Source: an uncultured Gammaproteobacteria bacterium (GTDB taxonomy: Bacteria; Pseudomonadota; Gammaproteobacteria; Pseudomonadales; Porticoccaceae). From it: a stretch of DNA of 44,218 nt. The first letter of the stretch is position 1, and every line of letters starts with the position of its first letter. The translations under genes and the position numbers were made by a program. The DNA lies in assembly GCA_913060555.1 (NCBI GenBank), contig CAJXRS010000007.1:1-44218 (forward strand), read 5' to 3'. The notes under the pieces are model-generated. The model ran no database searches. It saw only the letters and a list, made by a program, of their open reading frames with translations, and was not told the DNA's origin. Shown here piece by piece: positions 8,121 through 27,988 of the stretch.

Positions 8121-9200
8121 GTGACGACACCATTGCAGAACGACCGCCTGCTGCGGGCGCTGGCCCGCCAACCGGTGGACATGACGCCCGTCTGGCTGAT
8201 GCGTCAGGCCGGCCGCTACCTGCCCGAGTATCGTCGCGTGCGAGCTGCGGCGGGCGATTTCATGAGCCTGTGCCGGGATCCCCAGCGAGCCTGCGAGGTA
8301 ACCCTGCAGCCGCTACGCCGCTTTGCCCTGGATGCCGCCATCCTGTTCTCCGATATCCTCACCATTCCGGATGCCCTGGGTTTGGGGCTGTACTTCGAGG
8401 AAGGCGAAGGCCCCAAATTTCGCCACCCTCTCCGGGATGCTGCGGCTATCGAGCGCTTGGGCGTTGTGGATACCGCCCGGGACTTGCCCTATGTGCTGGA
8501 TGCGGTGCGCCTGATCCGCCGGGAGTTGAACGGCCAGGTGCCGCTGATCGGGTTTTCCGGCAGTCCCTGGACACTGGCCACCTACATGATCGAAGGGGGC
8601 AGCAGTCGCGATTTCGTTCGGGCCAAGGCGCTGCTCTATGGGCAGCCGGAGGTGCTCCATCTGCTGCTCGATAAGCTGGCCGCTTCGGTGATCGACTATC
8701 TGAACGCCCAGATCGCCGCCGGCGCCCAGGTGGTGCAGATTTTCGATACCTGGGGAGGCGCGCTCAGCGCCTCGGCCTACCGGCGCTTTTCGCTGGACTA
8801 CATGACGCGCATCGTCGCCGCGCTGAGGCCTGCCGCCGATGGCTGCCGGGTTCCGGTAATCCTGTTCACCAAGGGTGGCACGCCCTGGCTGGAGGAAATG
8901 GCGGCCTCGGGGTGCGACGCGCTCGGGCTGGACTGGTGCGCCGATCCCGGCGATGCCCGGGCCAGGGTCGGGGGCCGCGTCGCCCTGCAGGGCAACCTGG
9001 ATCCGGCGATATTGCGTGCGCCTGAAGCAGTTGTCCGCCAGCAGGTGGGCGCAGTGCTCGATGCCTTTGGCCCGGGTCCGGGCCATGTTTTCAATCTCGG
9101 TCACGGAATCAGTCCCGATATCGAGCCGGCTCGAGTGGCGGCGCTGGTTGACGCGGTTCACACAATGTCCGCCAACAAAAGGCAACATATCGACAAATAA
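8121..9200 (+). CDS. hemE: Uroporphyrinogen decarboxylase
   Basis: [35 protein letters not shown] signature; GTG 8121 with upstream GGGGGAG preferred over the in-frame extension to 8007. Confidence 0.96.
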
Positions 9201-9353
9201 GGCGCGTTTGTCGGCAAAAACTACCGATAAGCAGCGTCCGGTTGCAAAAAGGCGCGTTTGGCCTATGCTCCAGTAGTCGCGGGAATGTCGGGCTGCCCGG
9301 TGGCTGCCCAGGCGTTTGCATGCAGCAGGGCAGCGAGGCCGAAAGGATTTGTC

Positions 9354-10748
9354 ATGGCTATCAAACAGGTCAAAGTCAGCGTCAATGATCTGACTATCGG
9401 CATGTACGTGTCCCAGCTCGATTGCGCCTGGACCCACACGCCTTTCCTGCTGCAAGGCTTTCAGATCCGCACCACCGAAGACATCGACACAGTTCGGCAT
9501 TACTGTGATTATGTCTTCATCGACACCACCAAGGGGAAGCGCCCCCTGGACGCGCAACCGCCTCCTGTTGCCGGCTTGTCCGGAGGCACACCCCGCAATC
9601 GCCAGAGGTCCCTGCAGGCGCTGGGACAGCGGCGCCTGGAGGCCAACGAGCCCAGCCCCCTGGTGGTCCGCAAGGGTATCTACACGACCACGGTATCCCT
9701 GCGCGCGGAAATGCGCCATGCCCAGGCGTTGCTCCGAACGCTGCAGGCGCAACTGGTGCAGGCCGCCAAACAGATTGCCAAAGGCCGGCTCGCCGACTAC
9801 GATCAGCTCAAGCACAGCGTCGACGGCATGGTGGAAAGCATCCTGCGCTGCCCCGACGCCTTCACCTGGCTCATCCGCCTGCGCCAGCACGATCAGAACG
9901 TCCACGGCCACAGCCTCAGGTCGGCACTCTGGGCGGTTCAGTTCGCCCGTTTCGTGGGTATGGACAAGCGGGAGATCGCCACCCTGTGCATGGGCACGCT
10001 GCTCAAGGACATCGGCAAGATTCGGGTGCCCGCGCAGATATTGCGCAAGCGCAACCGCGCTCCGGAAGAAGAGGCCGAGTACCAAAAGTTCGTCATGCAT
10101 GGGGTGGACATGCTGCGCCAAACCCGCGACGTCGAACCCCGGGTCATTTCGGTGGTGCGCTACCACTGCGAGCGCATGAAGGGTTCCGGATTTCCCGAGG
10201 GCCTGATGGGCAGCAAGATCCCGCTGCTGGCCAGGATCGCGGGTATCGCCACGGTATTCGACGCGATCAGCAATCCACTCGAAGCGGAACAACCGGTGGC
10301 GCCGTCCAAGGCGGTCAGCCTGCTCTATGACATGCGTGCCACCGAGTTCCAGGAGGATCTGGTGGTACAGTTCATTCAGTCCATCGGACTCTATCCCGCG
10401 GGAACCCTGGTGGAGCTGACCACTGGAGACATCGGTATCGTGGTCGAACAGCATCCCAAGTCCAGATTGACGCCCCAGGTCGCTGTGCTGGACCAGAACG
10501 GCGGCGATCTGAACCGGAATTTTCTGTTGATCGACCTCAAGGAGCAGGACGCGGCGCGTGAACTGCTGGTGGCCGGCGGGCGGGATGGCGGCCTGGGCAC
10601 CGAGCGCATCGCCATTGCGCGCGATCTCGAGCCCACTGGTTACGATATCGATGTGAAGGCCATCTCGACCCTCTTCATGCAGGCCGAGGCGGAGCGCAAG
10701 GCGAGCTTTTTCGAGCAGTTGCGCGACCGTTTCCGCGGCAACTCCTGA
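9354..10748 (+). CDS. HD-GYP domain protein with N-terminal DUF3391; degenerate HD motif
   Basis: DUF3391-like N-terminus (IKQVKVSVNDLTIGMYVSQLDCAW); HD-GYP core with KDIGK in place of HDIGK and GFP in place of GYP. Confidence 0.9.
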   Translation: MAIKQVKVSVNDLTIGMYVSQLDCAWTHTPFLLQGFQIRTTEDIDTVRHYCDYVFIDTTKGKRPLDAQPPPVAGLSGGTPRNRQRSLQALGQRRLEANEPSPLVVRKGIYTTTVSLRAEMRHAQALLRTLQAQLVQAAKQIAKGRLADYDQLKHSVDGMVESILRCPDAFTWLIRLRQHDQNVHGHSLRSALWAVQFARFVGMDKREIATLCMGTLLKDIGKIRVPAQILRKRNRAPEEEAEYQKFVMHGVDMLRQTRDVEPRVISVVRYHCERMKGSGFPEGLMGSKIPLLARIAGIATVFDAISNPLEAEQPVAPSKAVSLLYDMRATEFQEDLVVQFIQSIGLYPAGTLVELTTGDIGIVVEQHPKSRLTPQVAVLDQNGGDLNRNFLLIDLKEQDAARELLVAGGRDGGLGTERIAIARDLEPTGYDIDVKAISTLFMQAEAERKASFFEQLRDRFRGNS

Positions 10749-26566: not shown

Positions 26567-26640
26567 CGCGGCCGGAACCCGGCGCCAGGGACGGGTTAGA
26601 ATCGTACCGTCAAGTTTATACGCACCCGTAGCTCAGCTGG
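26567..26640 (+). repeat. Copy 1 of direct repeat: tRNA-Arg promoter/leader plus first 19 nt of tRNA (truncated)
   Basis: 73/74 identical to 26704-26777; tRNA-like part 26622-26640 GCACCCGTAGCTCAGCTGG, then sequence diverges. Confidence 0.93.
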
Positions 26641-26703: not shown

Positions 26704-26835
<132 letters not shown>

Positions 26836-26867
26836 GCTTCGCTGCCGCCACCGTTCGGATTGCCGGC

Positions 26868-26911: not shown

Positions 26912-27176
26912 AGTGGGCCACGCGGCTAATTAGGTAACACTCAGAGCCACTGTGCTGGTGCGAATCAAGGCGCGTTTCGCAGGGAATGGTTGTTCCCTTG
27001 CCAAGAAACGCAACGCCGAGTCGCGCCAGCACAGTGGCTCCCGGAGGGCCGCCGCGCAAGCGCCGTGGGCTGCGTTCCGCTCGCTTGAATTGGCAAAGCC
27101 AGTCCTGCACTCGCGCGCCTTGCCCACAACGCTTGTGCGACGGCTGAGCGTTACCTCATTAGCCGCGTGGCCCACT
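26912..27176. mobile_element. 265-bp non-coding element with 33-bp terminal inverted repeats and two internal imperfect hairpins (MITE-like or structured-RNA candidate)
   Basis: 26912-26944 and 27144-27176 are inverted repeats at 31/33 positions. Internal arms: 26944-26958/27026-27040 (15/15) and 27057-27070/27122-27135 (12/14). Confidence 0.75.
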
Positions 27177-27210
27177 AGCCTCCGTCCCCTGGGGCCGGAC
27201 CGCCCTTCGC

Positions 27211-27240
27211 CCTCTCGGGTGCGCCAGCTTCGCCGCCGCC
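27211..27240 (+). repeat. Right copy of 30-bp direct repeat (detached tRNA-Arg 3' end)
   Basis: CCTCTCGGGTGCGCCAGCTTCGCCGCCGCC; 29/30 to 26820-26849, 391 bp apart. Confidence 0.92.
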
Positions 27241-27259: not shown

Positions 27260-27988
27260 TCAGAGCGCGAGCGACCGCAGCTCCGGACTTCCGCTGTCTT
27301 CCAGGCGTGCATACCAGCCCTGCTCGGTGGTCCAGTCGCCCAGCACGATGCGCTCGCACTCGCGGTCGTCGATCCGGTAGACGTGGCGGCCGGGGCGGTG
27401 GGTGTGGCCGTGGATCATCAGTTCGGCCTGCGAGGTGCGAAAAGCCTCCGCCACTGCCTGCTCGTTGACGTCCATGATGTATTCGGGCTTGTTGCTGTTG
27501 TGACGGGTGCTGGCTTCCCGCCAGCGCTGCGCGATGCGGCGCCGCGCAGCGAGGGGCAGCCGCCGCAGCAGGGCCAGCACCCAGGGGTTGCGGATGCGGC
27601 GGCGAAATCGCTGATAGGCGGCATCGTCTGTGCACAGTGTATCGCCATGGAGGAGCAGGAGACGCCGTCCGGCGATCGACACCGACTCCTGGTCCCCCAG
27701 CAGGCGTGCTCCGGTGCTGCGCGCGAAGCGCTGTCCAACGCTGAAATCGCGGTTGCCGGCGAGAAAGTGCAGGCGGATGCCCCGTGCGCTGGCGGTGGCG
27801 AGCGCGCCGGTCACCGATTGCGCCAGTGGGCTGTCGTCGTCATCGCCGATCCAGGCTTCGAACAGATCGCCGAGGATGTACAGCGCCGGGGTTTCCGCAC
27901 CGCGCAGAAATTCCAGAAAGGCTTCGGTGACCGCGGGGCGCTCCGGGGCCAGGTGCAGGTCGGAGACGAACAGGGCCGCCGCTGGCAC
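27260..27988 (-). CDS. lpxH: UDP-2,3-diacylglucosamine diphosphatase
   Basis: LFVSDLHLAPERP, YILGDLFEAWIGDD, HFLAGNRDF, LLHGDTLC, MIHGHTHRP metallophosphoesterase motifs. Confidence 0.97.
   Translation of the reverse strand: MPAAALFVSDLHLAPERPAVTEAFLEFLRGAETPALYILGDLFEAWIGDDDDSPLAQSVTGALATASARGIRLHFLAGNRDFSVGQRFARSTGARLLGDQESVSIAGRRLLLLHGDTLCTDDAAYQRFRRRIRNPWVLALLRRLPLAARRRIAQRWREASTRHNSNKPEYIMDVNEQAVAEAFRTSQAELMIHGHTHRPGRHVYRIDDRECERIVLGDWTTEQGWYARLEDSGSPELRSLAL

Follow-up and report, generated by a model that had tools for sequence, protein, structure and literature searches.

The window, that is, the whole stretch of 44,218 nucleotides analysed (contig CAJXRS010000007.1 of an uncultured gammaproteobacterium of the Porticoccaceae, assembly GCA_913060555.1), contains a non-coding element of 265 bp at positions 26912-27176. 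It is located between the gene for tRNA-Arg(CCG) (26759-26835), which ends 76 bp upstream, and the 3' end of lpxH (27260-27988, minus strand), which faces it. A segment of 74 nt comprising the 5' part of this tRNA gene and its upstream region is doubled (26567-26640 and 26704-26777, 99% identical), so that a truncated tRNA start precedes the intact gene, with a GC-rich, hairpin-like insert between the two. In addition, 30 nt with the tRNA 3' end (26820-26849) are found again at 27211-27240, so the element sits between both tRNA 3' ends.

The element is short, carries no transposase ORF and is bounded by terminal inverted repeats of 33 nt each (26912-26944 and 27144-27176, plus strand), which pair at 31 of 33 positions (94% complementary), the same count as in the original prediction, around two long hairpin arms. 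Arm 1, a long imperfect hairpin at about 26944-27040 (plus strand), has a base of 23 nt paired at 91% (26944-26966 with 27018-27040) that includes the perfect 15-bp stem noticed earlier, and bears at its tip (26966-27016, plus strand) the conserved motif CAAGGCGC...GCAGGGAATGG...CCCTTGCCAAGA...GCAACGC. Arm 2, also a long imperfect hairpin, is an inverted relative of arm 1 with its tip motif on the opposite strand (27072-27122, minus strand); the bounds proposed at first stood for arm 1, and those of arm 2 had to be moved from about 27053-27139 to about 27049-27145 (plus strand). The arms are separated by a mini-hairpin of the form CC-n3-GG, also written CCC-nnn-GGG (27041-27048, plus strand). 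Folding of the 265 bp returned the predicted layout of an outer stem plus two arms, at -177.5 kcal/mol compared with -109 +/- 5 for shuffled sequences (z -13.7), and the opposite strand folds equally well.

Five full copies (98-100% identical) and more than 20 partial copies were detected at dispersed loci of the host assembly, a sign of a mobile repeat that had been anticipated. Many of the partial copies are cut off where a contig stops, the usual fate of repeats in short-read assemblies, and several forms with internal deletions are present too. Allowing up to three mismatches, the end consensus was counted 34 and 22 times in the host vs 3 and 3 times for the reversed control. The suspicion that the inverted repeats could be an assembly artefact was discarded, given that the same sequence is found in several contigs and that relatives exist in isolate genomes and complete plasmids. 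CTAG borders most host copies, many of them on both sides. In the window, it occupies the right junction (27175-27178), an IS630-type target whose TA falls on 27176-27177; GCAG stands at the left junction, with CA where the TA model expects TA, and is apparently a mutated target. Empty sites, whose search had been recommended, were found in relatives of this dispersed, multicopy element: in the congener G001, the site orthologous to a remnant on host contig C68, where the same gene ends, is a single unbroken CTAG. A copy of the related elements in Azotobacter vinelandii has an empty site in A. chroococcum, with a junction too diverged to define a precise target duplication. Among the host's own copies L001-L028, the right flank is always AG and the left CT is often changed (in contig coordinates), perhaps by chance.

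The distribution of copies also bears on the other reading offered for this locus, a locus-specific structured RNA co-transcribed with tRNA-Arg. Although the element begins 76 bp downstream of the tRNA, its other copies occupy unrelated loci, the orthologous tRNA locus of the congener lacks it, and Rfam gave nothing above the gathering threshold for the element, only chance hairpin-type matches far below these scores. A tRNA-linked ncRNA is already contradicted by where the copies lie and is considered extremely improbable.

On contig C71 of the host (9183-10326), a 1.14-kb insertion sequence of the IS630 family is bounded by CTAGTGGGCCACGCG ends and has the left terminal inverted repeat in common with the element. 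The match covers 15 nt on the left and, with minor differences, 29 nt on the right (scores of 30 and 43; shuffled maximum 23). Its transposase carries HTH and DDE_3 domains and is frameshifted into two pieces, which match NF033545 (IS630) with E-values of 1e-32 and 9e-15. In PMC2170065, insertion at TA with duplication is described as shown in vitro for the IS630-family member ISY100, and the preference of IS630 for TA in CTAG figures there as the title of a cited paper (Tenzen and Ohtsubo, 1991).

As the ends match those of a host IS630 and the copies sit in CTAG, the element is classified as an IS630-type (Tc1/mariner) MITE. We consider it probable (roughly 0.8) that it is a non-autonomous MITE moved in trans by a transposase of the IS630/Tc1-mariner family, and one of a superfamily with a fixed body and changing ends. 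Mobilization in trans had been part of the original prediction, and it is supported by the multiple copies, the CTAG target and the presence in the host of an IS630 whose ends are the same. The transposase would recognize the ~33-bp ends and insert the element at the TA of CTAG; the body of ~265-270 bp, with its outer stem, two inverted arms and conserved tip motif, would persist while the ends change wholly between lineages, presumably following different transposases. The fold may arise during replication, when DNA is single-stranded, or in read-through transcripts, and it is proposed that folding accounts for the paired end changes of sister copies and for the recurrent loss of arms with small hairpin scars. 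Against these points, the C71 copy, the only IS630 found with matching ends, is frameshifted, and the window copy has no intact left TA. No IS630 with matching ends was detected in the 14 other genomes searched, nearly all of which carry relatives of the element, so that mobilization in trans is putative there; a search for inverted end pairs at IS-like spacing was likewise negative for two other end types.

Bacterial MITEs that derive from IS630 or otherwise target TA, of which Correia, ERIC and RUP are examples, resemble the element in being short, non-coding, hairpin-forming and of high copy number, with terminal inverted repeats and a TA-type target. Judged by their descriptions, the element differs from them in its body, which keeps a three-way fold of two homologous, mutually inverted arms and a common tip motif while the ends differ by lineage. 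CTAG-preferring IS630 (Tc1/mariner) elements match it in ends and target through the host IS630 copy, but, unlike them, it has no transposase gene. REP/REPIN-RAYT systems combine short REP hairpins, marked by a GTAG-type tetranucleotide, with a RAYT transposase; they share with the element the paired inverted hairpins, the intergenic location and movement in trans, whereas, by anatomy alone, the element is distinguished by arms of ~95 nt, long transposon-type ends and a TA target. The R0-R200 families of Pseudomonas fluorescens (PMC2718517) and MITEPsy1/2 (PMC3189936) are also small, inverted-repeat and mostly intergenic, and MITEPsy1 uses CTAG as well; the element is set apart from them by their published descriptions. 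MITEPsy1 is 100 bp long and duplicates 4 bp, its ends being like those of ISPsy2 (apparently listed as IS5), MITEPsy2 measures 228 bp and has Tn3-type ends (PMC3189936), and the R families differ in size from the element, the complex ones being described as one stem with a loop (PMC2718517).

The arm-1 tip was found in at least 119 stretches of GTDB contigs; among the matches listed, nearly all organisms named are Gammaproteobacteria, plus Comamonas. Around this tip 33 complete elements were delimited, most of them of 263-272 bp with paired ends of ~30-35 bp (those of Azotobacter and two other forms are longer). Their ends fall into groups without evident mutual similarity (CTAGTGGKCCAYGCGG, TAGTACTCCnnCAA, AGTGCTCTATC, TAAGACAATCGTTAAC, TAGGGYCTGTTGACGTTT and others). 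Folded singly, 30 of 32 elements adopt the outer stem with two arms and the other two prefer arm-to-arm pairing; an automatic test, sensitive to where the ends are drawn, scored TA on both sides in 15 of 32. Arm 2 bears a looser form of the arm-1 tip motif on the opposite strand and, since the elements were collected through arm 1 only, its presence points independently to conservation. The covariance model R1, built from arm 1 and giving rough E-values, matched 104 of 369 sampled gammaproteobacterial genomes at E <= 1e-5, and 51 of 299 genomes in a sample of the phylum, mostly Gammaproteobacteria with a few other families, f219 being rich in matches. Unannotated copies are present in plasmids of A. 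chroococcum, a conjugative plasmid of P. aeruginosa and a Halomonas replicon; plasmid and phage records gave no match to the window element by DNA similarity. Open-access papers yielded no earlier description of the motif or the element (ISfinder and subscription journals were outside the scope) and, as far as searched in this literature and Rfam, the superfamily is unrecognized. What is new is its breadth, the same three-arm shape being present in many gammaproteobacterial lineages with unrelated ends. An ordinary mobile repeat would not be expected to preserve this shape after complete change of its end sequence. If this reading holds, a repeat found in about one in four of the gammaproteobacterial genomes sampled has had no name; it breaks short-read assemblies, and even complete plasmids carry it without annotation.

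Twenty-three elements, aligned by sequence only, were scored against the structure of the window element. Paired cells amounted to 80.9% vs 61.9% in the shuffled alignment, and double changes affected 77 of 108 pairs, with 485 double-changed cells vs 171 when shuffled and at most 207 in slid controls, bearing in mind that the cells counted are not independent events. The covariation score reached 0.493, compared with 0.166 after shuffling and 0.08-0.18 when slid. The outer stem and both arms are thus backed by strongly positive covariation across species, a check that had been suggested, and the "structured" part of the earlier RNA proposal holds. Free prediction with RNAalifold cross-pairs parts of the two inverted arms, and therefore the three-arm structure was tested explicitly. 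The core positions of the tip motif are invariant in the 23 aligned elements, all collected with that motif; for arm 1 this invariance is partly circular, as an exact pattern of the motif was used in the collection. Internal loops and bulges of the motif (e.g., AA opposite AAC) are kept in all 23 sequences.

Pairing may also be maintained without selection. Over the ~200 nt of their arms, the five own copies differ at 2 sites only, while end positions 10, 15 and ~20 vary in register on both ends and one copy has an extra nucleotide in both. Paired end changes of this kind are hard to get by independent mutation and point to end-to-end correction through the folded state, so covariation in the outer stem should not, by itself, be taken for selection. 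It can be proposed that the element is an ordinary IS630 MITE with an unselected fold, in which intrastrand template switching (quasi-palindrome correction) or end-to-end conversion keeps the stems paired as the sequence drifts, and the in-register changes next to near-invariant arms do resemble a mutational process. Such correction, however, would erase the loops and bulges of the tip motif, which all 23 sequences retain (an argument weakened by the collection through an exact motif pattern), and the size of ~263-272 bp is constant across lineages with unrelated ends. As a complete explanation it is considered rather unlikely, and hairpin template switching, instead of selection, may maintain some of the pairing. 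In the arms, the bulges that are retained and the tip motif shared by both, in lineages whose ends are unrelated, argue that the folded shape or a factor binding to it is under constraint. We tentatively propose, at somewhat less than even odds, that the two arms constitute a functional core module, folded as ssDNA or RNA and conserved, which has spread through Gammaproteobacteria and at least one other family of Pseudomonadota by repeated end change, so that one structured passenger would be carried by many different IS630-type transposases. If so, these elements provide a natural test of why bacterial MITEs fold, as a core kept while ends turn over makes transposase recognition (ends) separable from the role of the fold (arms).

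The insertions L005, L009, L097, L098, L101 and L105 lie ~-2 to +21 nt from a predicted stop codon, which L101 keeps; this perhaps reflects the TAG within CTAG. Insertions at or just behind stops, numerous among the own copies, together with a copy between two co-directional genes of a Pseudomonas plasmid, the conserved tip motif and loops and the covarying stems, would also suit arms that act as a functional RNA module (e.g., one that binds a protein or serves in processing or stability at the 3' ends of genes) that mobility only spreads. Yet both strands fold equally well, and placement at stops may follow target choice, because CTAG contains the stop TAG and is generally rare inside genes; we regard this explanation as improbable.

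Decay forms of the MITE occur in the host, where a 20-bp form with its ends fused, AGTGGGCCACGCGGCCCACT, is found at nine loci (L097-L105; contigs C2, C10, C25, C64, C68, C85, C97, C113 and C188), most with CTAG on both sides and one with a change in the last base. The left and right ends contain an imperfect direct repeat (GCCACGCGGC / GCCGCGTGGC), and slippage between its units would give exactly the 20-bp form in either orientation. In a second deletion form, the arm-1 tip (CCCTTGCCAA..) runs straight into the final ~8 nt of the right end; this form occurs at two host loci (L008, L009) and four loci of G011 (L038-L041), and so recurs in two genomes whose elements have unrelated ends. Arm-less forms that keep their ends, with other unrelated end sequences, were detected in A. 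chroococcum, Sedimenticola, the isolate Bco_10 and G011. As several genomes with such forms are metagenome assemblies, some of them may stem from polymerase jumping over hairpins during sequencing; the arm-less cases of A. chroococcum come from an isolate. The arm-tip motif was also observed in single palindromes with quite different outer stems and no evident second arm (L042 in G011 and L031 in G018), and the arm model located further arms outside the 265-bp family in the host, at C5:10531-10737 and C123:5512-5620.
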